Shown here: positions 1,247-40,253 of the stretch, one piece after another
Layout of the letters: every line of letters starts with the position of its first letter
Position numbering within the stretch: position 1 is the first letter of the stretch
Assembly: GCF_001883705.2 (NCBI RefSeq)
Contig: NZ_MDEQ02000007.1
Coordinates: 62,001-126,000, forward strand
Length of the DNA: 64,000 nt
Direction of reading: 5' to 3'
Source of the DNA: Burkholderia catarinensis
GTDB lineage: Bacteria > Pseudomonadota > Gammaproteobacteria > Burkholderiales > Burkholderiaceae
The notes under the pieces: model-generated
What the model was told of the DNA's origin: nothing
Seen by the model: only the letters and a program-made list of their open reading frames with translations
The model's database searches: none
Program-made: the position numbers and the translations under genes

Positions 1247-1338
1247 GACAGGAGAGTCCGCCGGGTGGCTTACTTTTCCAACAACAAAGGTCCGTCTGCT
1301 CACAAAGCGGCGCGGATCGTACGCCGCGAGGCACGACA

Positions 1339-2382: not shown

Positions 2383-2436
2383 GTATCATGCGGGGCACGC
2401 AGCGCGTCAGGTGCGCTGCCCCGAACAAGGAAATAC

Positions 2437-3225: not shown

Positions 3226-3238
3226 CGGGAGAGACGGG

Positions 3239-3601: not shown

Positions 3602-3634
3602 ACGTTCGCGCCGGCGCGCTGCCGGTGCGCCGCA

Positions 3635-4066: not shown

Positions 4067-4194
4067 GGCGGGGGAAGTGCGGGAAAAGCCGGAGCTTATC
4101 CCGAATTCGGCGCGCCGTGTGACGCGCCGATCGCCTGGAGCGGGCGCGGCGCCGTTCGGCCCGGACGGGCAGCGCGGCGCCGGCGGGGAGAGGG

Positions 4195-4746
4195 TCAGGG
4201 CTGCGCCGGTGCGCTTGCGGCCGGCGCGGCTGCCGCCTTGCCTTCCTTGCCCTTCGTCTTGCCCTTGCCGCGATGCTCGCCGTCGTGGTGCAGCCAGCTG
4301 CGGAACGTCGTGTCGGCCAGCGCCTTCTGCTCGGCAGGGAATTTCTCGTAGAGCGGCGCGAATGCGTCGGCGAGCTTCTTCGCACCGTCGGCGTTCGCCT
4401 GCGACAGTTCCGCATACTGCTTGATGTCGTCGAGCGCGGAGACGTCGTGCTTGGCCATCCGTTCGCTATAGAGGCGGCCCATCGTGTCGCCGTTGTCGCG
4501 CATCGTATCGGCGAACGTCTTCCATTGCGGTTCCTGCGCCGACGTGATCTTCAACTGGTCGTGCAGGTACTTGATGCGCTGCTCGACGCGCGCTTCGTGG
4601 CGTGCCGCACGCTGCTCGGCGGTCGGTGCCGACGCCGCGGCCGCGGCCGGCGTGGCCTGAGCGGGCGCTTGCGGCTGCGCCGGGGTTTGCGCGAACGCGC
4701 TGGCTGCAACGACGAGCGTAGCGAGGGTGAGCGAGATTTTCTTCAT
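4195..4746 (-). CDS. Periplasmic Spy/LTXXQ-like protein
   Basis: A 183-residue exported protein. The start was placed at the ATG at 4744-4746, because it gives a clean signal peptide (MKKISLTLATLVVAASAFAQ, cleavage after AFA) and a GGAGAG-type ribosome-binding site. Longer upstream frames lack both. The mature part begins with a Pro/Ala/Gln-rich linker, then a helical region (about residues 55-150) with the LKITSAQEPQWKTFADTM pattern typical of the Spy/CpxP LTXXQ fold. The C-terminus is Lys/Ala-rich and low complexity. Spy-like proteins are periplasmic chaperones induced by envelope stress. It is divergent from the Lrp-type regulator gene. Confidence 0.7.
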   Translation of the reverse strand: MKKISLTLATLVVAASAFAQTPAQPQAPAQATPAAAAASAPTAEQRAARHEARVEQRIKYLHDQLKITSAQEPQWKTFADTMRDNGDTMGRLYSERMAKHDVSALDDIKQYAELSQANADGAKKLADAFAPLYEKFPAEQKALADTTFRSWLHHDGEHRGKGKTKGKEGKAAAAPAASAPAQP

Positions 4747-4873
4747 GGTTGGCTCTCCGGGGTGGTGTCTTGCGAGCGGGCACGGCGGCAACTGCCGCAA
4801 GCGCGCATCTCGCGTCGCCCACTATTAGTAGCATGTTGCGTGCGGCGCGGCAGAGAATGCGACACTTGCTTAC

Positions 4874-4911
4874 ATCCGATACGAATCGAAATTGAAAGGT
4901 TGATATCGGAT
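4874..4911. promoter_or_regulatory. Inverted repeat in the divergent spy-like / lrp-like promoter region
   Basis: ATCCGATA at 4874-4881 and TATCGGAT at 4904-4911 are perfect reverse complements separated by 22 bp. A second nested pair, GAATC / GATTC, lies just inside and overlapping. The region is noticeably AT-richer than its surroundings and lies between two divergent genes. A dyad operator, possibly autoregulation by the adjacent Lrp/AsnC protein, is an inference. Confidence 0.4.
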
Positions 4912-5001
4912 TCGGGCGATGCCGTTTGGGCGTGCCGGCGTTCGGCGCTATCATCGCGTCAACTTCCACTTAGCCGGCGCGTCGCGCGCCGGTCCGGCCT
5001 C

Positions 5002-5466
5002 ATGCGTCCACCCCGTCTCGACCAACTCGACGATCTCGACCGGCAGCTCGTTGCGCTGCTGCAAGCCGATGCGCGCGCCAGCGTCGCGGATCTCGCGCGC
5101 CAGCTCGACGTCGCGCGCACGACGGTCGTCGCACGCATCGCACGGCTCGAACGCACCAACGTGATCGCCGGCTACAGCGTCCGGCTCGGGCAGGACGTGC
5201 TCGACGCGAGCATCTACGCGTATGTCGGCATCATCCTCACGCCGAAGTTCGGCAAGGACGTATTGCGCAAGCTCGACCGGATGCCCGAAGTGCAGCTGCT
5301 GTGCGCGGTGAGCGGCGAGTACGATTACGTCGCGTGGCTGCGCGCCGATTCGCCCGAACGGCTCAACGACCTGCTCGACCAGATCGGCACGCTCGAAGGC
5401 GTCGAGCGCACGACGACGTCGATCATTCTTTCGCGCAAGATCGATCGCGGGACGATCGGCGGCTGA
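5002..5466 (+). CDS. Lrp/AsnC-family transcriptional regulator
   Basis: A 154-residue regulator with a winged HTH at residues 5-60 (LDDLDRQLVALLQADARAS, then VADLARQLDVARTTVVARI) and a C-terminal RAM ligand-binding/oligomerisation domain (about 75-145, with the SGEYDYVAWLR core). The ATG at 5002 gives the usual family length; the frame is open further upstream but that part has no HTH-like homology. Such proteins sense amino acids and act as dimers or octamers. The gene ends 3 bp before the stop of the convergent histidine kinase gene. Target unknown; divergence from the Spy-like gene makes that one candidate. Confidence 0.9.
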   Translation: MRPPRLDQLDDLDRQLVALLQADARASVADLARQLDVARTTVVARIARLERTNVIAGYSVRLGQDVLDASIYAYVGIILTPKFGKDVLRKLDRMPEVQLLCAVSGEYDYVAWLRADSPERLNDLLDQIGTLEGVERTTTSIILSRKIDRGTIGG

Positions 5467-5469
5467 CGC

Positions 5470-6894
5470 TCAGGTGCGGTGTACGTCGCGCGGCGCGTCT
5501 TGCGCTGGCGCATCGGCCCGGTTGTCGGGCTGCATCGTGCCGGGCGGCCGCGCGAGCGGAATCCGCACCGATACGCGCAACCCGCGCGAGGCCCGTTCGT
5601 CCGCATACGCGAGCGTGATGCCGGCACCCATCCGGTCCGCGAGGATCTTCACGATCGACAGGCCGAGCCCCGAGCCGATCTGCGCGTTGCCGGGCACCCG
5701 GTAGAACGGATCGAACACACGCTCGAGTTCATGCGGCGCGATGCCCGGCCCGGTGTCGGCGATCGTCACGCACGCGTGCGTGTCCGTGCGTTGCGCCGAC
5801 AGATCCACGCGTCCGCCGGGCGGCGTGTAGCGGATCGCGTTGTCGACGAGATTCATGACCAGCGACGCGAGTTCGAGCTCGTCGACGGGCACGCGGGTGT
5901 CCGGGCCGTCTTCGACGCCGATGTCGATCGCTTTCGCCTCGGCGAGCGGCATCAGGTCTTCCAGTACGCGGCGATAGATCGCATGCACCGACACGGCGCC
6001 GGGCGGTGCGGCCGGTGCGCTTTGCGCACGCGCGAGCGCGAGGAGCTGCCCGATCAGGTGGCGGCTGCGGTCGAGCCCGCCGCGCAGCGCGGCGAGCCGC
6101 GCGCGCGCATCGTCGGGCAGGTCGGTGTCGGCGAGGCGCTCGGCCTGCAGCGACATCGCGGTGAGCGGCGAGCGCAGCTCGTGCGCGGCATCGGCGACGA
6201 AGCGGCGCTGCGCGTCGACCGATTGCGCGACGCGCGCGAGCATCCGGTTGATCGCGACGACGAACGGCCGCACCTCGACCGGCACGCGATCGGCCGCCAC
6301 GGGGCGCAGGTCGTGCTCGTCGCGCGCGTCGATGCCGGCGGACAGCGCGGCCACCGGGCGGAACAGCTTGCGCACGAGATCGGCGACGAGCAGCAGCAGG
6401 ATCGGCACGAGGATCAAGAGCGGCAGCGCGGTGCGCCACGCGCTTTCGCGCGCCACGTCGTCGCGCATGCCGGCTTCCTGCGCGACCGCGATGCGCTCGC
6501 CGTTCGCGAATGTATGGACCATCACGCGATATACGTTGCCGCCGACATCGACGGTATGCAGCCCGTCGGCGAGCGTCGGCGGCAGCGCAAGCCGCGGCGC
6601 GCCGTCGGCGGCCGGCTGCGGAGCGCCGCCGAGCGGCTGCACGATCACGCGCGACAGTTCGTCGCTTTCGCGTGCGGGCCCGGCGCCGGCGGCACGGGGC
6701 GAAGGCGCACGCTCGCGGTCGAGCAGCGTCGCGACCTCGCGCAGCACGTCGTCCTGCAATTCGTGCGCTTCGTCGAATGCCGATGAAAACGAGAACGCGG
6801 CCGCGGCCGTCGCGACGACCAGGATCGCGGCCGACAGCGCGACCGACAGGCGGAACCCGATCGACTCGCTCAGGCGTTTCTTGAAACCATCCAT
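5470..6894 (-). CDS. Sensor histidine kinase, QseC/PmrB-like
   Basis: A 474-residue membrane histidine kinase. TM1 at about 14-38 and TM2 at about 153-172 flank a periplasmic sensor loop; a HAMP segment follows. The DHp domain contains the phosphoacceptor His238 (DAAHELRSPLTA), and the catalytic domain shows the N box (LVMNLVDNAIRYTP), G1 (DTGPGIA), F box (FDPFYRV) and G2 (GSGLGLS). The start ATG lies inside the last codons of the response regulator gene (25-nt overlap), so the two are translationally coupled. The signal is unknown; QseC-like kinases respond to metals, pH or envelope conditions. Confidence 0.92.
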   Translation of the reverse strand: MDGFKKRLSESIGFRLSVALSAAILVVATAAAAFSFSSAFDEAHELQDDVLREVATLLDRERAPSPRAAGAGPARESDELSRVIVQPLGGAPQPAADGAPRLALPPTLADGLHTVDVGGNVYRVMVHTFANGERIAVAQEAGMRDDVARESAWRTALPLLILVPILLLLVADLVRKLFRPVAALSAGIDARDEHDLRPVAADRVPVEVRPFVVAINRMLARVAQSVDAQRRFVADAAHELRSPLTAMSLQAERLADTDLPDDARARLAALRGGLDRSRHLIGQLLALARAQSAPAAPPGAVSVHAIYRRVLEDLMPLAEAKAIDIGVEDGPDTRVPVDELELASLVMNLVDNAIRYTPPGGRVDLSAQRTDTHACVTIADTGPGIAPHELERVFDPFYRVPGNAQIGSGLGLSIVKILADRMGAGITLAYADERASRGLRVSVRIPLARPPGTMQPDNRADAPAQDAPRDVHRT

Positions 6895-12282: not shown

Positions 12283-12570
12283 CTAGCGCGGCGCGTGCGT
12301 GCCGATCACGACGCGCCACGGACGCACGCGCCACGATTTCACGAGGCCGTTCTGCACGTACGGATCGGCACGCGCGAACGACTCGGCCGCTTCCGGCGAA
12401 TCGCCTTCGAACACGAGCACGGCCTGGTCGGCCGGGTCCGCCAGCGCGCCGGCGAGCAGGAGTTCGCCGCGCTCGGTCGCGGCCTGCGCGAGTGCGAGGT
12501 GCTGGGCGCGGAACGGTTCGCGCCGCGACAGGTAATCGTCGACGAGGTCGTAAATCAGCTGGTAATGCAT
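12283..12570 (-). CDS. YciI-like protein
   Basis: A 95-residue dimeric ferredoxin-like alpha+beta protein of the YciI family. Typical elements are the first strand YQLIYDLVDDYLSRREPFRAQH with the conserved region near His23, a central LLLAGALADPADQAVLVFEG, and the terminal VRPWRVVIG strand. ATG start at 12568-12570. Function of the family is not well defined (possibly enzymatic, with His/Asp residues). It appears monocistronic. Confidence 0.85.
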   Translation of the reverse strand: MHYQLIYDLVDDYLSRREPFRAQHLALAQAATERGELLLAGALADPADQAVLVFEGDSPEAAESFARADPYVQNGLVKSWRVRPWRVVIGTHAPR

Positions 12571-12917
12571 GCGTTGCTCCGGGAAGAGTCGGCGGCAGCG
12601 GCCGGTGCGTCGGGTCGGCCGTCGGTCAGTCTGCTGCGGCCAGTATAGGACAGCCGGGCGGTCGCGGCGCGAGCGGAAGCGTATCCCCGTTCTCTTGAAT
12701 GCAACTAACGGTCAGATTTCCGTGCGCCCTGAAATTCCGGCCGCGAACGCGCCTTTGACGCACAGGCCTTTGCGGCTTATAGAACGAGGCGGCGGCACAT
12801 CGGCCGGGCATCCCGCGCCGCACCCGGCGGCGAGTCACGGTCAAGCCGCGGCGTCTCCCGCATGAACCGGCCGCAGCCGGGGGGCATGCGCCGGCGCCGG
12901 ATCGGGGCGGCCCGCGT
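12571..12917. other. Intergenic stretch without recognisable gene
   Basis: 347 bp between the start of the YciI-like gene and the stop of the adenosine-specific kinase gene, both on the minus strand. It should contain the YciI promoter and the kinase terminator. Short frames exist on both strands but show no family resemblance, codon bias or ribosome-binding site. No clear hairpin followed by T residues was found. Confidence 0.6.
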
Positions 12918-13406
12918 CTACGCCTTGTATCCGATCGTGCGCAGCAGGTCCTTGCGCCAGCGCTCGTCGTCGTCGTTTTCGATGCCGAGCGGCGGAAAGC
13001 CGTCGACGACGCCGACGATGCCGCGTCCTTGTGCGGTTTCCGCGACGATCACGTCGGTCGGGTTCGCGGTCGCGCAGTAGATCCGGCAGACCTCCGGCAC
13101 GGCCTTGATCGCATTGAGCACGTTGACCGGATAGAAACCGTCGCCGAGGAATACGATGAACGCGTGACCGGCGCCGATCGCGCGGGCGTTGCGGCACGCG
13201 AGTTCGACGAGCTCCGCATCGGTGCCGGAACGGCGCACAAGCCGCTTGCCCGATGCCTCGCAGAACGCGAGCCCGAAACGGATGCCGGGCACGGTGCCGA
13301 CCAGCGCCTCGTGAATGTCCTCGACGGACTTGATGAAATGCGACTGGCCGAGGATGAAATTCACGGCCTCGGGCTTGTCGACGGCGACGGTTTGCAATTG
13401 CAGCAT
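12918..13406 (-). CDS. Adenosine-specific kinase family protein
   Basis: A 162-residue protein matching the small adenosine-specific kinase family (PF04008), which is unrelated to PfkB-type adenosine kinases. Characteristic stretches are NFILGQSHFIKSVEDIHEAL at the N-terminus, KRLVRRSGTDAELVELA in the middle and IYCATANPTDVIVAETAQGR followed by GIVGVVDG near the C-terminus. The ATG at 13404-13406 gives the expected size; the frame extends upstream but without similarity. Biochemical evidence for the family comes from archaeal structures, so the exact bacterial role is uncertain. The gene is divergent from the cysteine synthase gene. Confidence 0.8.
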   Translation of the reverse strand: MLQLQTVAVDKPEAVNFILGQSHFIKSVEDIHEALVGTVPGIRFGLAFCEASGKRLVRRSGTDAELVELACRNARAIGAGHAFIVFLGDGFYPVNVLNAIKAVPEVCRIYCATANPTDVIVAETAQGRGIVGVVDGFPPLGIENDDDERWRKDLLRTIGYKA

Positions 13407-13548
13407 GGCGGACCTCGTCTGGCGATGCGGCGCGCGCGCCGCAATGGGCTCTCCAAGCTTAGTACGCGGCGACCGGCGCCGAAAGCGGCGGGCGCGTCCT
13501 ATCCTTCGTTGTGTATGGCGCGCGAGCGCGAATGCCGAGGAGGGGAAC

Positions 13549-14523
13549 ATGGACGTGCGACAAGGCTTCGTCGACTGCGTGGGGCGCACACCGCTGATCC
13601 GGCTGGCGAAGCTCAGCGCGGAAACGGGCTGCGAGATCCTGGGCAAGGCTGAATTCATGAATCCGGGCGGATCGGTGAAGGATCGCGCGGCGCTCTACAT
13701 CATCCGCGACGCCGAGCAGCGCGGCGCGCTGAAACCGGGCGGCACCGTCGTCGAGGGCACGGCGGGCAACACGGGAATCGGTCTTGCGCATATCTGCGCG
13801 GCGCGCGGTTATCGCTGCGTGATCGTGATTCCCGACACGCAATCGCCAGACAAGATGGCAATCCTGCGCACGCTCGGCGCCGATGTACGACCTGTGCCGG
13901 CGGCGCCGTACCGCGACCCGAACAACTATCAGAAGATTGCCGGGCGGCTTGCCGACGAACTCGACAACGCGGTGTGGGCCAACCAGTTCGACAACGTCGT
14001 CAACCGGCAGGCGCACTACGAGACGACCGGGCCGGAAATCTGGCACGACACGGCGGGCACGGTCGATGCGTTCGTCTGCGCGACCGGCACGGGCGGCACG
14101 CTGGCGGGGGTGAGTCGCTACCTGAAGGAGCAGAATCCGGAGGTCCGGATCGTGCTGGCCGATCCCCACGGCAGCGGGCTCTACGGTTACGTGAAAACGG
14201 GCGACCTCAGCGCCGAAGGCAACTCGATCACCGAAGGCATCGGCTCGACGCGCGTCACCGCGAATCTCGCCGGCGCGCCGATCGACGACGCCGTGCGGAT
14301 CGATGATCCGCTGTGCGTGAAGATGGTCTACCGGCTGCTGCGCGAGGAAGGGCTGTACGTGGGCGGATCGAGCGGCATCAACGTCGCGGCGGCGGTCTGG
14401 CTTGCCCGCCAGATGGGCTCGGGGCACACGATCGTGACCTTGCTGTGCGATCGCGGCGACATCTATCGAGCGCGGCTGTTCAACCGCGAATGGCTGCGCG
14501 AAAAGGGGTTGGATCCTGAATGA
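13549..14523 (+). CDS. PLP-dependent cysteine synthase family protein
   Basis: A 324-residue fold-type II PLP enzyme. The ATG at 13549 follows GAGGAGGGGAAC. Lys44 in NPGGSVKDRAA is the Schiff-base lysine; the substrate loop reads EGTAGNTGIGLA (TAGNTG instead of the TSGNTG of classical CysK), the phosphate-binding loop is CATGTGGTLAG, and the C-terminal VGGSSGIN binds the PLP pyridine. It should make cysteine from O-acetyl- or O-phosphoserine and sulfide, or act in related beta-replacement. The loop variant makes a CysK2/CBS-like specificity possible. No other sulfur genes are adjacent. Confidence 0.85.
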   Translation: MDVRQGFVDCVGRTPLIRLAKLSAETGCEILGKAEFMNPGGSVKDRAALYIIRDAEQRGALKPGGTVVEGTAGNTGIGLAHICAARGYRCVIVIPDTQSPDKMAILRTLGADVRPVPAAPYRDPNNYQKIAGRLADELDNAVWANQFDNVVNRQAHYETTGPEIWHDTAGTVDAFVCATGTGGTLAGVSRYLKEQNPEVRIVLADPHGSGLYGYVKTGDLSAEGNSITEGIGSTRVTANLAGAPIDDAVRIDDPLCVKMVYRLLREEGLYVGGSSGINVAAAVWLARQMGSGHTIVTLLCDRGDIYRARLFNREWLREKGLDPE

Positions 14524-30831: not shown

Positions 30832-31881
30832 ATGACCAAAGATCTGCGCAAGCCCGCGTGGGCTGAAGATTATCGTCACTGGTTCACCGAGCTCAAGCAG
30901 CGCGTCGAGCGCGCGCGGCAGCGCGCCGTGGCCAGCGCGAATCGCGAACTGGTCTCACTGTACTGGCAGATCGGTCGCGACATTCTCGACCGGCAGCAAA
31001 AACAAGGCTGGGGTGCCGGCGTCGTCGACCAGCTCGCGCGTGATCTCAAGGCCGCGTTTCCTGACATGCGTGGGTTTTCGCCGCGCAACCTCAAGTACAT
31101 GCGCGCCCTCGCCCAAGCTTTTCCGCAGCCGGAATTTGTGCAACAGCCCGTTGCACAATTACCGTGGTCGCACGTTGTGACACTGCTCGACAAGCTTGAC
31201 GACGCCCCGCAGCGGCTTTGGTATGCGGAAAAGTCGCTCGAGCACGGTTGGTCGCGCAGTGTGCTGACCATGCAGATCGAGACGGCCGCCCATGCGCGCG
31301 CCGGCAACGCCGTGACAAATTTCGCCGACCGGCTGCCGCCTCCACAGTCGGATCTCGCCCACGACGCACTCAAGGACCCCTATATCTTCGACTTCCTCGG
31401 CCTGACCGAGAATGCCCAGGAGCGCGACATCGAACGTGCGCTCACGCAGCACATCACACGTTTCCTTCTCGAACTAGGTGCCGGGTTCGCATTCGTCGGG
31501 CGTCAGTACCGGCTGGAGGTAGGTGGCGACGAGTTTTTCATCGATCTGCTCTTCTACCATCTCAAGCTTCGCTGTTACGTCGTTGTCGAACTGAAAACGA
31601 CGCCGTTCAGACCCGAATACGCGGGGCAACTGAACTTCTACCTTTCCGCGCTCGATGCGCAGGTCAAGGCGCCGGAGGATCAACCAACTATCGGTCTGCT
31701 GCTGTGCAAGGAGAAAAATCGGCTTGTCGCGGAGTATGCGCTGCGCGGCGCGGCCAAACCGATGGGAGTGGCCGAGTACCAGCTTATGCGCGAGGTACCA
31801 CCGTCGCTGGAGACAGGTCTCCCGACTATCGATCAGATCGAGGCCGAACTGCGTCCCGATCTTCCGGATCGCGCGGAATGA
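30832..31881 (+). CDS. YhcG / DUF1016-type PDDEXK nuclease domain protein
   Basis: A 349-residue protein. The N-terminal winged-helix-like DUF1016 region (about 10-160) has LVSLYWQIGRDILDRQQKQGWG and GFSPRNLKYMRALAQAFP. The C-terminal PDDEXK nuclease core (about 180-330) has the catalytic FFIDLLFYHLKLRCYVVVELK (Asp ... Glu-x-Lys), followed by PEYAGQLNFYLSALD. Family members occur in accessory islands near restriction or toxin genes and are thought to cleave or bind nucleic acid. ATG start at 30832. The gene stands alone, convergent with the helicase-topoisomerase operon. Confidence 0.88.
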   Translation: MTKDLRKPAWAEDYRHWFTELKQRVERARQRAVASANRELVSLYWQIGRDILDRQQKQGWGAGVVDQLARDLKAAFPDMRGFSPRNLKYMRALAQAFPQPEFVQQPVAQLPWSHVVTLLDKLDDAPQRLWYAEKSLEHGWSRSVLTMQIETAAHARAGNAVTNFADRLPPPQSDLAHDALKDPYIFDFLGLTENAQERDIERALTQHITRFLLELGAGFAFVGRQYRLEVGGDEFFIDLLFYHLKLRCYVVVELKTTPFRPEYAGQLNFYLSALDAQVKAPEDQPTIGLLLCKEKNRLVAEYALRGAAKPMGVAEYQLMREVPPSLETGLPTIDQIEAELRPDLPDRAE

Positions 31882-32056: not shown

Positions 32057-32431
32057 TCAAGTCGCGACGATCAACAGGTCGCTGCGCCTCCAGCGAGCTT
32101 CGCGGACGGCATCGTCGATCGCATTTGAGAGATCACGTAGTGCCTCATCGGCTACCGTAGAAATCTTGAGTCCAGCTGCGAACGCTAGTAGCAAGTCGAA
32201 ATCCGCTCTGGCCACGAGAGTCGCGCGTTCAGGCGCGTTGGCGTCACCGGCCAACGCCGATATCGGTGATGCGGCTAGCACGCCATACACATCTCCGACC
32301 TTGCTCGAATTGATCGAGATGACGGCGACTTGCACGGCTCCAGCGGCATTGGCTGCTGCGTGGGCGTCAACGCGCAATGGCGTCGCGAGCGAATTGGGTC
32401 CAACCGACAGAAATTCTATGATCACGCCCAT
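32057..32431 (-). CDS. Operon protein E: small protein of unknown function
   Basis: A 124-residue soluble protein, last gene of the five-gene operon. The ATG at 32429-32431 overlaps the preceding stop by 10 nt; an in-frame GTG at 32449 would add six Gly-rich residues. It is Ala/Val-rich with a beta-rich first half (AAGAVQVAVISINSSKVGDV) and helices in the second half (STVADEALRDLSNAIDDAVR). No signal peptide, membrane helix or known motif was recognised. Location and overlap imply coordinated expression with the helicase-topoisomerase protein. Confidence 0.6.
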   Translation of the reverse strand: MGVIIEFLSVGPNSLATPLRVDAHAAANAAGAVQVAVISINSSKVGDVYGVLAASPISALAGDANAPERATLVARADFDLLLAFAAGLKISTVADEALRDLSNAIDDAVREARWRRSDLLIVAT

Positions 32432-33225
32432 CCCGCCCCCGCCATCCACCGGTGATCAAGAAAATGAGTATCGAGCAGCCGTGCTCGAACTGCTCGGGCG
32501 ACGCGAGCGTTCGCGATCGCGGCCAGTGCGGCGCCGGGCAGATCAATCAGATCGTTTGCTGTGATGGCGGTCGAGCCGCCCTGCTGCATACGTACCAATT
32601 CCGGTTCAACAAGTGCGCATCGGGCGGCATCCATCTTCTCCAGACAGGCGGGCAGGCGTTCGACGTCAGCAGTGTTGACTCGCAATACCGTCACGGCGAA
32701 TGTTGCCAGCACGCGGGTGTCCCGACGTGGATATTGGCGATCGAGGCAGGCATGCAGCAGGCGAGTCGCCTCGCGAGTGGCGAGCGAGTTGTCGAGATTG
32801 CTGGTGGCTGCGAGGATACGCGCCAAAATGCCTGACGTGTCGTCGTCAGCGATAGTGCCGCCATGGGTGAGAATCGCCGCGACAAGCATGCGACGTGTCG
32901 GCGCGGGACCATGGATCAGCGACAGGCATAGATCGGCCAGCAGATTGCCAGGCGGCGGATCGAAGCGACGTACGATCCAGCCGACAAGCCGCTGGTGCGC
33001 CGTGACGGCGTTGCGGAATGCCACCGCGTCACGCAAGTAGTAGGCGCCTGCGAGATAACACTCCAGTCCACCATACAGTTCCATGATCGGACCCAGGTCA
33101 TCGAGCGACAATGCCGTCGCACGTGCTTCGTCGACACGATCGATGAGATCGGCGTACATCGCCATGTCCTCGCTGCTCACCCGGCGGGCCAATGCATCGA
33201 GCGGTGGATCGAGAATCACTGGCAC
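32422..33225 (-). CDS. Operon protein D: alpha-helical protein of unknown function
   Basis: A 267-residue protein, probably all helical. The GTG start (33223-33225) overlaps the preceding stop by 10 nt. Repeated helix patterns (DLGPIMELYGGLECYLAGAY, TREATRLLHACLDRQYPRRD, TADVERLPACLEKMDAARCA) resemble HEAT/TPR-like solenoids but no repeat consensus is clear. No catalytic motif, signal peptide or TM helix is visible. It sits between the possible nuclease gene and the last small gene of the operon, which suggests an adaptor or regulatory subunit; this is inference only. Confidence 0.6.
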   Translation of the reverse strand: MPVILDPPLDALARRVSSEDMAMYADLIDRVDEARATALSLDDLGPIMELYGGLECYLAGAYYLRDAVAFRNAVTAHQRLVGWIVRRFDPPPGNLLADLCLSLIHGPAPTRRMLVAAILTHGGTIADDDTSGILARILAATSNLDNSLATREATRLLHACLDRQYPRRDTRVLATFAVTVLRVNTADVERLPACLEKMDAARCALVEPELVRMQQGGSTAITANDLIDLPGAALAAIANARVARAVRARLLDTHFLDHRWMAGAGWA

Positions 33226-34148
33226 TCGAGATAATCCCTCTGGATGATGGGGATGGCGGTCGTCGCAAGATCACCTCGAGCCGCGACGAACGTGAGCCGA
33301 TTGTCGACCGCCGCGCTTTCGATCATGTCACCGGCCTGCTTTCGGGCCAACTGATAAGCCTTCGTGCCGGTTTCCCGTCGCATGTAGGCCGCTCTCGTTC
33401 TCGCATACAACAGCGATCGCTGCGATACCGGGGGTTTGACCTTCAACGCATTGAGGAGGGACGCAGGGCCTTTGACCGTACCATAGGTGCTGTTGCCCCC
33501 TTTCGCCTCGCCGGCCATGACGAGTGGCCCCTTACCGCCTGGAATGTCGACGCTTATCACGATGTTGACATTGTAGGACGCTCCGGTTTCGAGATAGTCG
33601 AGTTTCGTGTTGATCGGAGGATTCATATAGTGTGCGGCCCAGTTGGCGTGCATTGTGTTCGCGTTGCCAGCGGCGCCGGCCGAAAGATCGGCACCGAGCA
33701 GCGCAGACGCCTCGTAAAGCCATGCGACCAACCCGATCTCCTCCTTGAAGCCGCGCAGCTGGGTAGCTGTCGTGGCTGCATTGGCGCCATTGAAGGCAGC
33801 CGTTGCGCGTGCGACGAAGCCGGTATTGGCAAACGGCGTCGTGATGCGGAACGCATCAGCGCAGATGGTCATGGCCCGAGAATGATGTTGATGCGTCAGG
33901 TGACCGTGTGAACGAGCGGCGAACAACGCATCGCGTACCTCGACCGCAACCGAAATAATCGCTGCGTGCGTACCCTGCTTCGTCTGGTCACTGGCGAACG
34001 ACTCGAGCGCCGTGATCAGTTGCGCTGCGTAGCGATTGTTGGCGCTCGGCGTGCTCGAATTCAGGCGTGCTATTAGCCGCCGAATCGTCGCTAACTGCGA
34101 GCCACCGCCACCGCTCGTACGCGGATATGAGGCAAGACCGCCGCTCAA
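33216..34148 (-). CDS. Operon protein C: possible restriction-endonuclease-fold protein
   Basis: A 310-residue soluble protein. Its TTG start (34146-34148) overlaps the helicase gene's stop (TTGA). The N-terminal half is helical. The C-terminal half holds KEEIGLVAWLYEASALLG, then a strand region NVNIVISVDIPGGKGPLVMAGEAKGGNS. The Asp ... Glu-x-Lys spacing with the preceding helix Glu resembles PDDEXK/REase-fold toxins and nucleases, in which EAKGG is common. A conserved Gln/Tyr helix (KAYQLARKQAGDMIESA) follows. The fold is inferred by eye, without alignment. If correct, it would be the nuclease effector of the operon. Confidence 0.5.
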   Translation of the reverse strand: MSGGLASYPRTSGGGGSQLATIRRLIARLNSSTPSANNRYAAQLITALESFASDQTKQGTHAAIISVAVEVRDALFAARSHGHLTHQHHSRAMTICADAFRITTPFANTGFVARATAAFNGANAATTATQLRGFKEEIGLVAWLYEASALLGADLSAGAAGNANTMHANWAAHYMNPPINTKLDYLETGASYNVNIVISVDIPGGKGPLVMAGEAKGGNSTYGTVKGPASLLNALKVKPPVSQRSLLYARTRAAYMRRETGTKAYQLARKQAGDMIESAAVDNRLTFVAARGDLATTAIPIIQRDYLECQ

Positions 34149-37100
34149 TCACCCGGCTCCACGTCTGTCTTGCGTCCGGGCGCGTGACGCGATTCGTTCG
34201 CCGCCGGCGTGATGAGAGCGCCTGGTCGCGTTATCGCAGGTGGGCGCATCGCGCTTTCGAGTTCTGCCAGTGTGTTCCAGATTCTCGGCTCGATTTCGCG
34301 CATGGCTTTTCGCGACATGAAGCAGGCACCTAGCCATGCAAGTACGTCGGACGGTCGAGCCTGACCGTGCTCGATCTCGTCCAGACGATCCGCGAGCATC
34401 GCTGTGAATCCCGGATCCGACAGTTCGTCGGCCGACAACTCCTCGCGCCTCTCCTCCAGCGTCAGTGCTGCCTGCACGCCACTTACGGTCAGGCAGACCG
34501 AGCCGCCAGCCACCGGCATCTTGATCAGTTGTCTTTCCGCAAGGCTCTGCAGTGAGCGCGCGAGCGTTGAGGGGCGGCCGATCCCGGCAAATTCGAGATC
34601 GAGTAGCAAGCGATCGACCGGCATGTTCCACAATGTTGCAGCTTCCAGTGACCACTGCGGCACGATAGTGTCGAACGCATTGGCTTGCCAAGCATCTAGC
34701 AACGCATCGACGGAGTTAATTTGGGCGTCCTCGCCCAGCAGTAGCTCGGCGACGTACGGTACGACCTCGCGATCCTGCACCGTGCCCGACGCCGAGTTAC
34801 ACGACGTTGCCTGGATCCGTAGACGCACTTTCGCAGCACGAGCGGATTCGAACGGCAGGTCGAGCGAGGCATGTCGAACCAGATATGGTCCCTGCTCTGC
34901 AGCGATAAAGTGTTCCCAGACGAGCGTATAGACATCGCGATAATCTGGATGTGCGAATACGCCAGCAAGCGTCTCTGGCGATGCGCTGCGATCGAGAGGG
35001 GTGACGGGAGGATGACCTTCGCGGGAGCCCGGATCGATCGGCTCGAGCGGATCGAAGGCTCGTCCCGTGACCCCGTTGTTCGACCAGGTGCCGTCGTAAA
35101 GCGCCTGCAGCGCGTCCATCGTCCGCCACGGTAACAAACCGAAGCGACGCCACGCTTGCGCCATCAGCAAGATGGTGCCGGCCGCTGGCAGGTCAGCTGT
35201 TTCGTGTGTTACCACGGGCGGTTCGTCGGGCATCAGACGCAGTGTCTGCAGCGTGCGAAGCACTTTGGGGGCGTCGGCAGCGGGCGTCGTCGCCCGGTTC
35301 TGCTGCACCTGTACGACTTCACCTCGCAGCGTGATGCCGTCCACCTCGAGGCGAGCGACGATTCTCTGCGAGTCGGCCATTGAGCGTGTTTGGCGTGCCG
35401 TATCCAGTAGCATGCGTAGCACCGCGCCCTGCACACGGCCGATCATGATGCTGCGTGCTGCGGGCATGTGCTCCAGATCCACAGCGCCCAGCGGGGCGAG
35501 CTCCTCACACACCGCCAAGCATGCGTCGTCAGCCACCGGCTGTTGCATCACGGCGTGGAACCGTGCGGTGATGAGGTTGTCGGCGATCTCGCGGACGATT
35601 TCGGCCATCACCTTGTTTTCGTCGAGCGCGCCGGGCGAGGCCAGCGCCGCCTCGACGGCTGGGTGCGTGATCGCACCCAGCCGCGCGCGCACGACCCGCT
35701 TGCTCGCGAGCGGCTCGCGCAACAGCCGCAGGATCTGCCATCCGATGTATTCGCCCATCCGGTCGTCGTCGGTCGCTATTACGATATCGTCGACCGATTC
35801 GACGAGGGGCGTTGCGTTAGCGACGAACGCCGCGGCATGGTCCTGGGGTACGGGGCGCGGCACGAAGCCGGCATTGATGTCGACGCCACCTTCGAGCGGC
35901 AGCGTGGTCAGGGCGCCTGCCGTCGCTATCACCCCCGAAGCCTTGCCGAGTAGCTCGCCAAGGCTTGTCTGTTTGTTCGGCGCTTCAATCAACACGGCAC
36001 GCTGCGGGTAGAGCGGCCGCGCGGTGGTGCGATGGCGCAGATGCACGCCAAGTTGCTCTACGGGCGACATCGAGACGAGCGCTTCGCGATCGGCGATCTC
36101 GTTGCGTGGCACAAATCGGTCTACGTTGCCAGAGAACAGGCGGGTAGGATGCGCGAACACGATGAATGAGCGTTTCGCGCGCGAGACGGCGACATTCAAC
36201 AGACTGGCATCAGCGTCAATGAAGCTGCCGCCGCCCTGCTCCGGCCCCTCCACGAGACTGAAACAGACGATTGGCCGCTCGGCCCCCTGCAGCTTATGGA
36301 CGGTGCCCACCACCACTTTGGCCACGTCGTCCGGCGCGGGCCATGTTCCAGCGCGCGACTCGCGGGCGTCGTCGAACGCTTGCTGGATTCTCTCCTTCAA
36401 CAGGTCGGCCTGGGGACGATATGGCGTGATCAGCGCGACGATCTCCCGCAACGGCTTGCCCGCCGTGGCGGCGTTGGCTTGCCATGCTGGCCAACGCTCG
36501 ACGACCCAGGCAACGATCTCTTCAACCTCGCGAGGATTGCGCCACGAGCCGCCTGCCGGCAACGGCTCGGCATTCACCGATACCCAGGCAATCGTAGGCT
36601 CCGGCCCCTTGTCGTCTTCCTCGGTTGTGATCTTGAGCCGATTTCCGTAAGCAAGCGTGTTGCAGTAACGGATGATGTCGGGCTTGCAGCGATAGTGGTA
36701 TTTCAGCGTGACGCCGAGGTCGTCCGCTTCGCGCCAGCGTGACAGCAGTCGCGCGATGTCGAGCATGCTGCCCGATGCCACCGAACGGTGCGACCGAACG
36801 ATATCATCGAGATACGGCAGCGTGTCGGTTTGAGCCGCAATGCCGAATTCTGTCAGCGGTGTGTTATTCCAGATTGGCGCCAGCTGTTTCCGATCGCCGA
36901 CAACGGCGGCGCGGCGCGCAAGCGCGAAGATCGCAGCGGTGAGTTCCGGTGGCGCTTGCCCGGCCTCATCGACGACCAGCAAATCGACCTTCCCGAGCAC
37001 ATGTGTGACCGGGCTTGCCGGGTTGACGAGTGTCGGCTCGATGGCAAACAAGCGCGGTGCGCTGTGCAGCGTAGAGACAATGCAGGGCGTCAGCATGCAG

Positions 37101-39004
37101 AGGCGCCGCAGCGCATCCTCGACGTTCGCCGGGTGGCGCGTCACGAGCCGTTCGCGTTGCGCGAGCAAGAAGCGCCCTTCCCAGTAGCGCGCCGCCCAAT
37201 GGAAGGCATCGGCGCGCCACAACAGATCGGCGATGTCTTCGGCTGCCCAGGCGTCGTGCTCCCGATTGAGTCTATCGATACGATCCTGCAGGACTTCGAT
37301 CCGCTTCTCTGTCCACTGATCGCGTGCAGCTTCGAACGCCCTCTCGACACGGTGATGCCAAGGACCACCTTCGCGCCACTCCCGCTCGAAGCTGGCTTGG
37401 GCATCCATCACGAGATCGAGTCGGTGCCAGACATGCTCAATCGCAGCTTCAAGCGTCGTCAGCTCGGGATCGTTCAGAGCATGCCGCGCATGGATGAGAT
37501 AGGCTTCTTCATATTCGATTGCACGAAGCGGATCGAGTACATCCTGCCGGTTCCAGTAGCGGTAAAGAAAGCCACCTTTGGTCTCCTGGAGGCAGACGAA
37601 TCGCTCCGCTTCCGCGCGCGTGGAAGCGTCGGTGAGGCGTGAGCTGGCCGGCAGGTAAGCGCCGTAGCTGCTTGCATCTGCAATCCAACGCTGGGCGTGG
37701 GTGAGCGTCGCGTCCGGATGTGGTGCGTTGCCGAACGCCTCAATCACGTTGGTGACGGACTGGTTGGTCGCGCCGCAAGCAAGCGTGATAGGACACGGCG
37801 CCTGCTGCAGTGCCGCGTTGATCCACTGGCTAGCGACGACGGCACGCAGCATCGACGTCTTACCGCTTCCCGGCGGTCCGTTGACCGCCTGTAGTTCGCC
37901 CTCCTTGAGCGACAGGATCGCACCGACTGCCGTGCGCTGTGTGGCATCGAGAGGGAATAACCCGCGTCGCGCAACGCCGCCGTCATATTCATCGATGTGG
38001 CCCGTCATGGCCTGATTGATCGAAGGTGGAGCTTGTTCGATCCACGCCGCGTTTTCGCCGCCGCCCAGTCGCTCGAATAGCGGCAGCCGTCCATTCTCGC
38101 GTTGTAGCTCGGTGAGCGCAGCCGCGTACGTGGCATTCAGCTGACCGCGTCCGCTGCCCTCGGCGGGTAACGTTACGGCGTAAAGTTGCCAAGAGCGGCG
38201 TTGGCCAGAACCGCGGCGGGTGCTCGTCTTCCGATCTCTGGGTAATCTCGCGATCAGTTCCGTCAGCAACGCAACGTCATCGTCGACTCCAAGCAAGCCG
38301 CGCAACACGGCCATCGAGGTACGCCACCAGGTGTCCCACCCCGGTGCCACGGTTGGATCGGTCACCATGGCGCTGAGCTGTTGCGTCATCGCCGCATTCG
38401 CCTCGTCTCGATGCGCGATCCGGAAACCGTAAGACTCGACGTCGGGATCGAGATACTTACCGTTGAAGATCGGCGGTGCGTCGGTACGAGGAGCCAGCAG
38501 ATTGTCCTCGGTAAGGATGGCCGGCACTGCCAACAACATGTGCATCCGGTTCTTCAACTGTGGCACGTGGTTCGCGTCGGCCTCCCAAAGCGCCAGGACC
38601 ACCTGTACATTGTTGCCGGTCGATGTTTGCCCCTCTGCGTCGGGGCTGGCGCCGTGCCGATGCGCATCTGCAGCGAGCAACGTGAGCTCCGGCAGCTTCC
38701 CACTCTTGCGAAGCCGATCGCGCAAGTCGTCGAACGACACGTAATCGAGTGCCGAACACCAGTATTGCGCAAGCGCCTCGACGGGGATTTCTGGCACCCG
38801 GATGGTTACAGCGGTCCGACGGTAGATACGATGCGGTCCAGAGACGGGTTCCGGTGCTATCGGGATGGCAGGCGGAGCGGCTGTGGAAGCGCGCGGGACA
38901 CTTGATTGAGCGTCGATTGCACCGTGCGTGGGAGATAGTGTGACGTCACCGCTAACGGCCTTCGCAAGCGAGACTAGGAATTTACTGAGCCAGGGCCGAA
39001 TCAT
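34145..39004 (-). CDS. Operon protein B: SF1 helicase fused to a topoisomerase-IA-like region
   Basis: A 1619-residue protein; the ATG at 39002-39004 overlaps the upstream stop by 23 nt (a longer frame to 39166 lacks support). Residues 350-960 form an SF1 Upf1/Dna2-like helicase: Walker A GPPGSGKT (376-383), Walker B DEAGQ (679-683), motif III VVGDRKQLAP (701-710), LITPYRPQ (858-865), motif V GTVHKLQGAE (900-909) and motif VI NVAVSRAKRSF (936-946). Residues 1000-1390 resemble topoisomerase IA: Toprim with Glu1007 and ATDDDRMGEYIGW (1077-1089), GRVQ (1189-1192), GHPPVTP (1330-1336) and DVYTLVWEHFIAA (1357-1369). The segment aligning with the active-site ITYxR reads VTGR (1312-1315), so the catalytic Tyr appears absent. 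The C-terminal 230 residues are helical and unrecognised. Confidence 0.85.
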   Translation of the reverse strand: MIRPWLSKFLVSLAKAVSGDVTLSPTHGAIDAQSSVPRASTAAPPAIPIAPEPVSGPHRIYRRTAVTIRVPEIPVEALAQYWCSALDYVSFDDLRDRLRKSGKLPELTLLAADAHRHGASPDAEGQTSTGNNVQVVLALWEADANHVPQLKNRMHMLLAVPAILTEDNLLAPRTDAPPIFNGKYLDPDVESYGFRIAHRDEANAAMTQQLSAMVTDPTVAPGWDTWWRTSMAVLRGLLGVDDDVALLTELIARLPRDRKTSTRRGSGQRRSWQLYAVTLPAEGSGRGQLNATYAAALTELQRENGRLPLFERLGGGENAAWIEQAPPSINQAMTGHIDEYDGGVARRGLFPLDATQRTAVGAILSLKEGELQAVNGPPGSGKTSMLRAVVASQWINAALQQAPCPITLACGATNQSVTNVIEAFGNAPHPDATLTHAQRWIADASSYGAYLPASSRLTDASTRAEAERFVCLQETKGGFLYRYWNRQDVLDPLRAIEYEEAYLIHARHALNDPELTTLEAAIEHVWHRLDLVMDAQASFEREWREGGPWHHRVERAFEAARDQWTEKRIEVLQDRIDRLNREHDAWAAEDIADLLWRADAFHWAARYWEGRFLLAQRERLVTRHPANVEDALRRLCMLTPCIVSTLHSAPRLFAIEPTLVNPASPVTHVLGKVDLLVVDEAGQAPPELTAAIFALARRAAVVGDRKQLAPIWNNTPLTEFGIAAQTDTLPYLDDIVRSHRSVASGSMLDIARLLSRWREADDLGVTLKYHYRCKPDIIRYCNTLAYGNRLKITTEEDDKGPEPTIAWVSVNAEPLPAGGSWRNPREVEEIVAWVVERWPAWQANAATAGKPLREIVALITPYRPQADLLKERIQQAFDDARESRAGTWPAPDDVAKVVVGTVHKLQGAERPIVCFSLVEGPEQGGGSFIDADASLLNVAVSRAKRSFIVFAHPTRLFSGNVDRFVPRNEIADREALVSMSPVEQLGVHLRHRTTARPLYPQRAVLIEAPNKQTSLGELLGKASGVIATAGALTTLPLEGGVDINAGFVPRPVPQDHAAAFVANATPLVESVDDIVIATDDDRMGEYIGWQILRLLREPLASKRVVRARLGAITHPAVEAALASPGALDENKVMAEIVREIADNLITARFHAVMQQPVADDACLAVCEELAPLGAVDLEHMPAARSIMIGRVQGAVLRMLLDTARQTRSMADSQRIVARLEVDGITLRGEVVQVQQNRATTPAADAPKVLRTLQTLRLMPDEPPVVTHETADLPAAGTILLMAQAWRRFGLLPWRTMDALQALYDGTWSNNGVTGRAFDPLEPIDPGSREGHPPVTPLDRSASPETLAGVFAHPDYRDVYTLVWEHFIAAEQGPYLVRHASLDLPFESARAAKVRLRIQATSCNSASGTVQDREVVPYVAELLLGEDAQINSVDALLDAWQANAFDTIVPQWSLEAATLWNMPVDRLLLDLEFAGIGRPSTLARSLQSLAERQLIKMPVAGGSVCLTVSGVQAALTLEERREELSADELSDPGFTAMLADRLDEIEHGQARPSDVLAWLGACFMSRKAMREIEPRIWNTLAELESAMRPPAITRPGALITPAANESRHAPGRKTDVEPGD

Positions 39005-40253
39005 CGTCGAGTGTGTTGGAAAGGTGGGGCATGGCACGATGCAGGTGCGACGCGCTCCAGTACTGGCCTCTCGATACGAGACGCACAATGATCGGGACGC
39101 CAGGGGCAAGCCCTGCGCTCCTCGATACCGATTCGGCAACGAAAGCGCGGCTCGTGCCGCGGCCAAGTCGTTCGTCGCTGAACTGGAGGGTGACCATCAT
39201 GAATGGCTCGGTATGCTTGGCGGCGTCGGCCGTATCCGACGAGAGGGTGAGCGACGTCATCGGCTCAGACTGCGGATCGCCCCCCGGTCCCGAAGCCTGA
39301 AAGGCGGGCCCGGCTTGCTGACGCGGCACGTGAACTTTGATCGAATCAACAGTCGCGGCAACCCAGTCGATCACCTCACCGTCGGCGGTCGGTACGCGGA
39401 ACATGCCGGGCGCCAGCAATCGCAGGAAATTCCATCGAGTCTCCTCGCCTGCCGACTCGATCCACATAAGCACGCGATCTATCGACAGTGCCTCGGCATC
39501 CTCACGTGGGCCACGCAATATTGCCGACCACGAATCGATTAACGCACGACTTTGCTCGTCGGTGTCGGATTCCGGCAACGAGGCGCGATGTACCGCCTGG
39601 ATGCCAAGCGCGCGCAACGCGCTCGATTTCACCCAAATCCTCGCTGAAACCGGTGCTCCCTCTTCGTGCGTGGCGAACGGAACGGCTTTTGCGCCCGATG
39701 CGGACCACGTATTCAGTGCGAATGCCACGACAGGCTGCTGCGCTGCGCCGGCATGGCGTCCACCGGGAAATGCCTGACCGGCGTGCGGCGCATGCAATAC
39801 CGTGGCTTCGAAACGCGAGCCGTTTCGTTGCGCATCGACGAGCACCTCGGTGCCTGTACGAATGAACGCAATGCTGGCACTTTCTACGATCGATTGCGGT
39901 AGCACCAGAGCCGCGCCATCTAAGTCGAGATCAGGGTCCAGCGGTGTCAGCAAATATTCACGCACGCCTTTCGTGGGCCCCACCAGCACGCTTGCTCTCA
40001 CCGACTGCAGCGTGGATGGCAGATGGTCCATTAGCACCGACACGACGCTCCATCGATTGTTTACGATGGCGATTTCACAATGAAAGCGTTTGCCCGCCAC
40101 CGGCTGGATCCCGAGCCTCTTGACGCTGAAGGTCGCCTCCGTGGCGGGCGCCTGAGTGACGATGACTGCGTTCGCCCAAGTGCCATAACGGCCCTCTTTC
40201 CACTCATGGACGACCGCTTCGACCTGGATCGATCCGATTGGCTGATTGTTCAT
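38982..40253 (-). CDS. Operon protein A: possible OB-fold/cold-shock-like nucleic-acid-binding protein
   Basis: A 423-residue protein and first gene of the operon (ATG 40251-40253). Three segments of about 65 residues look like divergent OB/cold-shock modules. Each starts with a beta strand, has a central Gly-rich turn and ends with a G-x-V-x-V then Arg/Ser-x-x-A-x-x-L pattern. They lie at about 8-75, 83-155 (VRASVLVGPTKGVREYLLTP) and 345-410 (VTLQFSDERLGRGTSRAFVA). The linker carries DRVLMWIESAGEETRWNFLRLL. No known family was recognised with certainty. Nucleic-acid binding would suit a partner of the helicase-topoisomerase. Confidence 0.55.
   Translation of the reverse strand: MNNQPIGSIQVEAVVHEWKEGRYGTWANAVIVTQAPATEATFSVKRLGIQPVAGKRFHCEIAIVNNRWSVVSVLMDHLPSTLQSVRASVLVGPTKGVREYLLTPLDPDLDLDGAALVLPQSIVESASIAFIRTGTEVLVDAQRNGSRFEATVLHAPHAGQAFPGGRHAGAAQQPVVAFALNTWSASGAKAVPFATHEEGAPVSARIWVKSSALRALGIQAVHRASLPESDTDEQSRALIDSWSAILRGPREDAEALSIDRVLMWIESAGEETRWNFLRLLAPGMFRVPTADGEVIDWVAATVDSIKVHVPRQQAGPAFQASGPGGDPQSEPMTSLTLSSDTADAAKHTEPFMMVTLQFSDERLGRGTSRAFVAESVSRSAGLAPGVPIIVRLVSRGQYWSASHLHRAMPHLSNTLDDDSALAQ

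Follow-up and report, generated by a model that had tools for sequence, protein, structure and literature searches.

Results

A five-gene operon around a helicase–topoisomerase protein

What does a protein that joins a superfamily 1 (SF1) helicase to a type IA topoisomerase do in a bacterial operon, and is it a complete topoisomerase? The question arises from a window of 64,000 nucleotides of Burkholderia catarinensis, the whole stretch of DNA analyzed here, in which ORF calling gave five co-directional ORFs on the minus strand at 32057–40253, in the order A-B-C-D-E:

38982–40253, minus strand: gene A, 423 aa, the upstream gene
34145–39004, minus strand: gene B, 1619 aa from the ATG at 39004, an MkoC-like SF1 helicase with Toprim and a type IA topoisomerase domain that lacks the tyrosine loop
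33216–34148, minus strand: gene C, 310 aa with a TTG start; tyrosine peptide, Gly-rich linker, helical bundle and an alpha/beta domain with GEAKGG
32422–33225, minus strand: gene D, 267 aa, candidate immunity or accessory protein
32057–32431, minus strand: gene E, 124 aa from the ATG (130 from the GTG at 32449), candidate immunity or accessory protein

The A/B, B/C and C/D overlaps are 23, 4 and 10 nt, and D and E overlap by 28 nt if E starts at the GTG at 32449, or by 10 nt if it starts at the ATG at 32431, in agreement with an earlier sequence-only reading that had described one overlapping, co-directional operon. Homologues of E start at the ATG at 32431, as residue 7 in the window aligns with residue 1 in loci L005, L006 and L007. 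These three loci, each in another genome, have the same A-B-C-D-E order; the genes treated as a set by that reading do stay together elsewhere. Similarity at equivalent positions is clear for A, B and C in all three (for A, E = 6e-30, 5e-34 and 4e-7 in L005, L006 and L007, respectively). For D and E it is clear in L005 and L006 only (D, 9e-12 and 2e-14; E, 1e-11 and 3e-16), with E-values of 0.60 and 0.12 in L007. Gene order varies among relative loci.

The operon is also rare. C was present in one of 299 family genomes, its own, and full-length B among 101 genomes occurred in its own genome only, with two others matching the helicase alone. Neither unlinked homologues nor conservation as housekeeping genes was seen in the genome samples examined. 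Searches of Pfam, PADLOC, NCBIfam and PHROG gave no match for gene A at the limits used, so that the possible OB fold of the earlier reading, taken to be that of A, has no family match behind it. D had no Pfam match up to E 1, and E gave sub-threshold family matches only; no toxin or immunity family matched C, D or E of the window.

B lacks the tyrosine loop of a type IA topoisomerase

Within B, the following regions were distinguished:

36146–37957, minus strand: SF1 (UPF1-like) helicase core, residues ~350–953 (AAA_11, AAA_30, AAA_12; PADLOC MkoC, PDLC03924, E 8.7e-159)
35675–36007, minus strand: Toprim domain, residues ~1000–1110, with E1007, K1011, D1079 and D1081 (Pfam Toprim 2.1e-7; 2gai alignment)
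35015–35095, minus strand: short linker at the tyrosine-loop site, residues ~1304–1330, from LYDG to GHPP
34370–35014, minus strand: rest of the topoisomerase domain (H1331, IGRPST), residues ~1331–1545, a separate gene T in other loci

The best Pfam Topoisom_bac stretch covers profile positions 328–410 (residues ~1465–1555), and the best solved relative is 2gai, a 'DNA topoisomerase I' that we take to be a Thermotoga maritima protein. AAA_11/AAA_12 and Toprim/Topoisom_bac matches thus confirm that a single 1619-aa protein combines an SF1 helicase with Toprim and topoisomerase IA parts, as first read. In alignment A2, 12 of the 21 positions tallied are invariant and the other nine are conserved in 36–38 of 39 rows. 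The putative catalytic residues E1007, K1011, D1079, D1081, E1085, R1106, R1190 and H1331 are each present in 39/39, and B has, as a type IA enzyme should, a Toprim domain with the catalytic Glu and the DxD pair. The window family carries Met at the Glu115-equivalent position.

The active-site tyrosine is the residue by which topoisomerases grip DNA. No Y-x-R-T was found between LYDG and GHPP in any of the 39 rows of A2, and the 2gai stretch between the aligned pieces (282–330) has no counterpart in B. The motif of the Tyr-x-Arg loop expected in the same polypeptide lies instead at the start of C. Because the loop is missing from B and its motif is on C, B is not self-sufficient; the idea of a complete, one-chain SF1 version of reverse gyrase, which the sequence-only reading had invited, is ruled out.

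The missing motif forms the N-terminus of C

The N-terminus of C (MSGGLASYPRTSGGGG) carries the tyrosine-loop motif that B lacks:

34113–34148, minus strand: tyrosine peptide MSGGLASYPRTS at the start of C, with Tyr8 and Arg10 ([ST]YPRT; weak Topoisom_bac match at profile positions 157–221, E 0.066)

In 22 of 23 rows, among them that of the window, residues 7–11 of C read [ST]YPRT, and the 23rd row is truncated; in 20 of those 22, SGG directly follows the start residue. In an AlphaFold2 model of C (pLDDT 89.4), residues 1–15 fall below 50, so that the tail is disordered in the model yet conserved. The body of C in the window holds no recognised toxin domain. Its predicted alpha-beta topology and GEAKGG motif are compatible with a possible PD-(D/E)XK nuclease, which gives the earlier suggestion of an REase-fold partner support from motif and topology; the fold comparison speaks neither for nor against it, with generic helical matches and no PD-(D/E)XK chain among the matches listed.

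The tyrosine peptide is linked to helicase–Toprim genes

For a control, the regular expression [TSA]Y[PS]R[TS], written after the motif was seen, was required within 20 residues of the start. It was carried by 15 of 1265 ORFs in 97 loci; all 15 are C genes, one per locus, which rules out a chance N-terminal motif. A separate scan, which looked for single frames with both Toprim and helicase motifs, returned exactly the same 15 loci, and none of the four Toprim-only frames (L096–L099) has a neighbour with an N-terminal tyrosine motif. At the level of sequence, therefore, the absence of the loop from B, the motif at the start of C and their one-to-one linkage in 15 loci are established.

Where T is a separate gene, B ends at LYEG or within ~30 residues of it, T starts at an AHEAIRP-like motif, and C starts with the tyrosine. 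The T proteins of L012 and L009 match Topoisom_bac at profile positions 212–409 and 213–405. In L028, tyrosine and T are in one protein (profile 157–383), and no toxin domain was recognised in this two-piece split. Since T or another gene separates B and C in several loci, and spacing varies, joining of B and C by frameshift is unlikely as a general rule.

More distant relatives of B show the same boundary. The Toprim motif is present in 84 of the proteins P0001–P0121. Among the 29 distant B proteins with this motif in P0060–P0093, 28 end no more than 60 residues from LYxG. The 29th, P0081, is a natural fusion that runs from helicase through Toprim, LYEG and TYPRVDG to an HNH-like stretch, and is the sole exception to tyrosine loss among relatives of B. 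In P0015, P0017, P0024, P0031, P0056, P0080 and P0096, a Tyr pattern is present but lies away from the topoisomerase site. These results constitute strong sequence evidence for a split active site.

Some sister-locus C proteins match toxin domains beside immunity-type genes

Residues 104–239 of the L093 C protein match the end of a Bacillus subtilis LXG toxin (3e-13), and the genes after both are annotated as YrhA family. The C protein of L020 contains Endonuclea_NS_2 (7.6e-32), a domain that occurs in FHA-type and LXG toxins as well, and the next gene is a YezG-like immunity gene. L020 is from Marinomonas and L093 from a Polaromonas plasmid, and L012 is from Psychrobacter, all of them environmental relatives. 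In L019 and L095, the neighbouring YrhA genes score over the cut-off, and the HNH matches of C are weak (E 0.14–0.22 and 0.046). As in polymorphic toxins, a variable C-terminal part follows a shared N-terminus: the C proteins of L012 and L020 align over residues 1–119 only (E 2e-13), and the window-type and L008-type C profiles over residues 1–29 only (E 4e-4, probability 35%). The Pfam matches of the C proteins that were scanned include no secretion domain; where one would be expected, at the N-terminus, there is the topoisomerase peptide.

Genomic context and wider searches

A YhcG-type nuclease adjoins the window operon, and Gabija, restriction or PDC-S73 genes lie beside three relatives. 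Together with the MkoC match of B, a known defence family, and the rarity of C, these neighbours uphold the earlier view of a linked, uncommon operon near a YhcG nuclease in a defence-type setting. The sequences themselves show that some sister loci encode toxin and immunity domains, and that the surroundings include mobile and defence genes.

A genome-contig scan with B alone found no relative. The DNA pattern MSGxxSYPRT occurred in none of 369 genomes of the class, and also misses the window because C there starts with TTG; two such patterns gave no hit in viral contigs. When the class was searched with the L009 Toprim part, four of 369 were returned, namely L096–L099, which resemble ordinary TopA and show Toprim but no helicase motifs, and a word search with the start of the L009 C protein returned seven close relatives only. 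Sixteen phage records matching the Toprim part of L012 look like ordinary topoisomerases, and the nine loci from a viral scan with A2 all match in the helicase region only. No description of such a system was found in the literature searched, whose scope excluded subscription papers and bioRxiv and so does not establish absence from print.

Discussion

Relation to known systems

The helicase of B matches that of Mokosh type II: besides the window protein, six other B proteins match MkoC (2.5e-85 to 4.9e-161). However, the match ends at 944/1136 in the window and at 941–955 in the six others, and in B a Toprim/topoisomerase part follows, to which the operon adds a separate tyrosine effector. 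Mokosh II carries a PLD-like domain, according to PMC10952713. No PLD family is among the Pfam matches of B, which rules out an ordinary Mokosh II with a C-terminal PLD-like effector.

B shares Toprim, the catalytic residues and the IGRPST region with TopA, TopB and reverse gyrase, but lacks their tyrosine loop, the motif being carried by another protein. Its helicase is SF1 (AAA_11/AAA_12, MkoC), whereas that of reverse gyrase is SF2; NCBIfam rgy scores best in the topoisomerase part of B, below the cut-off (69.3 vs 471.7 bits). Split topoisomerases are known. PMC2063514 places the tyrosine of Leishmania topoisomerase IB on a small subunit, and PMC8185306 describes reverse gyrase split in two archaea, M. 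kandleri and N. equitans. In each of those cases a single enzyme is divided, whereas in most arrangements here the tyrosine peptide does not follow chain order, and the bodies to which it is fused vary and include toxins accompanied by immunity-type genes. The nuclease domains of sister loci are of the same kinds as in LXG/T7SS and FHA-type polymorphic toxins and adjoin YrhA or YezG-like genes, but the N-terminus of C is a topoisomerase tyrosine peptide and no delivery domain was recognised.

A plausible mechanism

Based on these findings, we propose, with the balance leaning modestly in its favour, that the product of the operon is a type IA topoisomerase whose active site is split, with effector C supplying the tyrosine in trans, and which arms invader DNA. 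B, together with T where T is separate, would contribute the helicase, of SF1 type, along with the Toprim metal site and the remainder of the DNA gate, while the nucleophile would be the tyrosine on the short flexible peptide at the N-terminus of C. First, the tail of C would enter the empty site of B, and the enzyme would cut one strand. Since the tyrosine is borne in trans by an effector, cleavage would leave the 5′ end covalently linked to C and not to B. Should the parts then separate, for example under helicase translocation, the effector would stay bolted to the DNA. Finally, invading phage or plasmid DNA would be armed with a nuclease, and immunity would protect the host. Because the effector in several loci is a nuclease with an adjoining immunity-type gene, arming invader DNA would be the simplest purpose. 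We infer that the site assembles in trans, that a covalent link forms, that the window's own C is a nuclease and that the operon serves in defence; the role is probably one of anti-invader defence.

Alternative readings

The same toxin and immunity domains, being of kinds found in LXG and FHA-type toxins, would also suit a weapon carried by DNA, in which the toxin is attached to DNA that leaves the cell, whether by conjugation, with a phage or by some other kind of transfer, and kin are protected by immunity as they are from exported polymorphic toxins. One operon copy does lie on a conjugative MOBH plasmid; other loci, however, are beside restriction systems or integrases, or inside a Tn7-like element, and inspection by eye found no transfer gene common to the operons. 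We regard this account as unlikely.

Also unlikely, in our estimate, is docking without cutting, whereby the SYPRT tail would sit in the empty pocket of B, and B would hold the toxin inactive and free it when the helicase senses invading DNA. Such a leash would fit the conserved, disordered tail, the toxin–immunity cassettes and the Met of the window family at the Glu115-equivalent position. Docking should nonetheless need less than the Tyr and Arg of the motif together with the metal, Lys, Arg and His positions, all of which are retained, and in L028 and P0081 the tyrosine follows the usual order of the chain, joined to T in the one and to B in the other.

A split topoisomerase under regulation that serves element maintenance, with C bodies acting mainly as docking or regulatory subunits, has precedent in known split enzymes and would suit the window and L028, where no toxin domain is recognised, but is improbable given the nuclease domains with immunity-type genes in L020 and L093, the weaker HNH matches beside YrhA genes in L019 and L095, and the HNH-like fusion P0081.

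Implications

The preferred reading, a tyrosine supplied in trans by the effector, points to a machine for bolting toxins onto DNA. In its broadest form, to which we give slightly less than an even chance, this would be a new immune machine in which a topoisomerase acts as a protein–DNA conjugase: the empty tyrosine pocket would take interchangeable toxins with an N-terminal tyrosine tag and link them to invader 5′ ends, and the toxin–immunity cassette would be swapped as in polymorphic toxins, with the nucleophile serving as the delivery domain. If true, a catalytic nucleophile has moved onto interchangeable cargo, and the transient DNA–protein bond of a topoisomerase has become a route of toxin delivery, which would amount to a new principle of defence or conflict. 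The operon would also be a case in which complementation of a type IA active site in trans can be tested, and would provide a tool from nature for coupling proteins of choice to DNA 5′ ends, and a short N-terminal SYPRT-like peptide after a helicase–Toprim gene may serve as a signature in seeking hidden toxin–immunity pairs.

A putative type IA topoisomerase site divided between B and C

The operon consists of five minus-strand genes, A to E (40253-32057), whose junctions overlap by 23 (A/B), 4 (B/C), 10 (C/D) and 10-28 nt (D/E). It is read here as encoding a type IA topoisomerase with a split active site, in which the effector C would supply the tyrosine in trans; as judged by sequence, the tyrosine motif is separated from the pocket and the two are linked in 15/15 loci. 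Models for SF1 helicases, Toprim and Topoisom_bac all match B (1619 aa), whose helicase region corresponds to that of MkoC, from the Mokosh defence family (E 8.7e-159). When B was aligned to 38 relatives (39 rows in all, picked from the best 120 of 451), E1007, K1011, D1079, D1081, E1085, R1106, R1190 and H1331 were each present in 39/39 rows; 12/21 tallied positions are invariant and the remaining ones are retained in 36-38 of 39. By their correspondence to E. coli numbering, these eight are putative lining residues of a type IA active site. The match of B to 2gai, a solved topoisomerase I, runs in pieces up to 281, just past the LYEG helix, and restarts at 331, at the AHEAIRP motif; the skipped 2gai stretch presumably holds the tyrosine loop. 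No Y-x-R-T was found in the corresponding short linker of B in any of the 39 rows. Elsewhere, the host genome retains a single complete Topoisom_bac domain (profile 6-411).

Residue 1083 of B (gene 34145-39004), equivalent to Glu115 of E. coli TopA, is Met in 39/39 window-type rows and Glu in the relative locus L095; the metal site of B may be altered.

The N-terminus of C reads MSGGLASYPRTSGGGGS. [ST]YPRT occupies residues 7-11 in 22/23 rows, the window among them (row 23 is truncated), and SGG directly follows the start residue in 20/22. The C body was modeled with a pLDDT of 89.4 and a pTM of 0.88, with residues 1-15 disordered; these residues are a conserved flexible tail. Scanning 97 loci with [TSA]Y[PS]R[TS], a regular expression composed once the motif was known, placed it within the first 20 residues of 15/1265 ORFs. 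The ORFs were the longest non-overlapping ones with a minimum of 100 aa, and 13 loci that were fragmentary or duplicates had been excluded by name. A second scan for Toprim and helicase motifs in one open frame returned the identical 15 loci (window, L005-L010, L012, L019, L020, L027-L029, L093, L095), with only the Walker motif matched in L007 and only the C-terminal helicase motif in L012, whose contig starts inside the gene. Seventy-nine loci had been retained from 549 relatives, 12/79 with Toprim; the others came from a viral-contig scan, one plasmid (L093), one genome out of 399, and flank and TopA searches.

Gene orders around a single cut

The gene arrangements, ARRANGEMENTS, have a single cut; T denotes a separate gene for the rest of the topoisomerase domain.

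Gene orders in the 15 loci
Window type (window, L005-L007): A-B-C-D-E, rest of topoisomerase within B
Group II (L008-L010, L012, L020, L029, L095): B, T (starting at an AHEAIRP-like motif), C
Group III (L019, L093): B, C, immunity-type gene, T
Group III (L027): B, unassigned gene, C, T
L028: B, then tyrosine and T as a single protein

Residues 3-242 of the L028 protein match Topoisom_bac profile 157-383, while the T proteins cover 213-405 (L009) and 212-409 (L012) of the profile; these coordinates confirm the borders of the split pieces. Of 29 remoter B proteins that carry a Toprim motif, 28 stop at most 60 residues from LYxG. The 29th, P0081 (residues 1440-1704), is a natural fusion, a single chain with helicase, Toprim, LYEG, TYPRVDG and an HNH-like stretch (HHIIPLDDGGEN).

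L028 (8954-14535) is a two-piece form, in which a protein distinct from B unites the tyrosine with the remaining topoisomerase domain; this may be the ancestral layout, predating the insertion of toxin cassettes. Midpoint-rooted, a tree of 50 B proteins clusters the window type with T-fused proteins and two unfused ones (node support 0.33), most group II loci form a sister clade, and L095 is placed with group III. A larger protein lies upstream of B in several group II loci (L008-L010, L020, L029) and on the L093 plasmid; hhalign detected no convincing similarity between window-type A and the upstream proteins of L008/L009/L029 or L020.

Interchangeable bodies of C

As judged by sequence, the bodies of C are interchangeable across loci, some of which have nuclease and immunity-type genes, and in some the cargo is toxin-like by family match. 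C of L020 contains Endonuclea_NS_2 (7.6e-32), a domain that plasmid-borne toxins of the FHA and LXG types also have; a YezG-like immunity gene comes next (5.7e-7, above its cut-off). C of L093, named 'HNH endonuclease signature motif' in RefSeq, matches over residues 104-239 the end of an LXG polymorphic toxin from B. subtilis (3e-13), and also SP-beta-like phage proteins (3e-14). Both in L093 and at the B. subtilis toxin, RefSeq assigns the following gene to the YrhA family; in one Cytobacillus example, the toxin match and the YrhA gene are separated by two transposase genes. With the YrhA model, whose cut-off is 55 bits, the genes that follow C score 69.0 (L019), 64.9 (L095) and 61.1 (L093), and these YrhA pairs occur in two orders, C-immunity-T and T-C-immunity, in separate subclades.

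Alignment of C from L012 and L020 is confined to residues 1-119, and that of the window-type and L008-type C profiles to 1-29 (probability 35%). Scanning 23 window-type members of C revealed no toxin family, which counts against a toxin in the window; Topoisom_bac was weak in 3/23 (best 0.0083), and Ntox15 (0.054) and MafB (0.099) gave single sub-threshold matches. The positions of GEAKGG, Gln and Tyr in the window's C, with its modeled strand-helix order, would suit a PD-(D/E)XK nuclease. Pfam gave nothing convincing for C of L009, L010, L012 and L027, and no plasmid homologues of the L027 or window C were found. NCBI names the L009 C (12538-13692, P0147) 'PAAR-like protein'; its body and the following 172 aa gene had no Pfam match.

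Genomic setting

A, C, D and E had no family match above curated cut-offs in Pfam or NCBIfam; PADLOC and PHROGs gave no match either. Immediately beside the operon, on the opposite strand, lies one nuclease gene:

30832-31881, plus strand, YhcG/DUF1016 PDDEXK nuclease (PADLOC PDC-S02, E 3e-163)

DNA homology with three related genomes ends at 30.6-30.7 kb, past the RND gene (one contig ends there and is not informative), so the operon lies in DNA that the compared relatives do not share. In another of the three (L108), the RND gene is followed by DNA with homology to window 17.1-19.6 kb, at the place where the window has the YhcG gene and the operon, a sign of rearrangement. C was present in 1/299 family genomes and full-length B in 1/101, each time its own. 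Among named sequences, proteins of Burkholderia come closest (87% for B, 78% for C); C has a nearer match at 91%.

In the subset of loci whose flanks were scanned with defence models, L007 adjoins Gabija and a type IIG enzyme, L006 PDC-S73, and L020 a type I restriction enzyme. An integrase lies beside L020 and L029 and a serine recombinase beside L019; L093 is on a conjugative MOBH plasmid. In Pseudoalteromonas, the L010 system looks like transposon cargo, with upstream:

1147-6041, minus strand, Tn7-like genes (TniB, TniQ, rve)

Comparison with known enzymes and proposed mechanism

In gyrase, tyrosine and Toprim are on different subunits, and in the split reverse gyrase of M. kandleri the tyrosine is on the small subunit. 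To our knowledge, none of Leishmania topoisomerase IB, the split reverse gyrases and gyrase carries its tyrosine peptide on exchangeable toxins. Topoisomerase splitting as such is already known: the Leishmania enzyme has its tyrosine on the small subunit (PMC2063514), and reverse gyrase is split in M. kandleri and N. equitans (PMC8185306). No description of such a system was found in a search of open-access literature other than preprints.

A composite model built for tail docking (pTM 0.33) is neutral for docking. We propose that the C tail would enter the B pocket and attack DNA, and a 5'-phosphotyrosine would thus form with C. The helicase would position or pull the complex, the nuclease would degrade the DNA attached to it, and D and E may serve as immunity or accessory proteins in the window.
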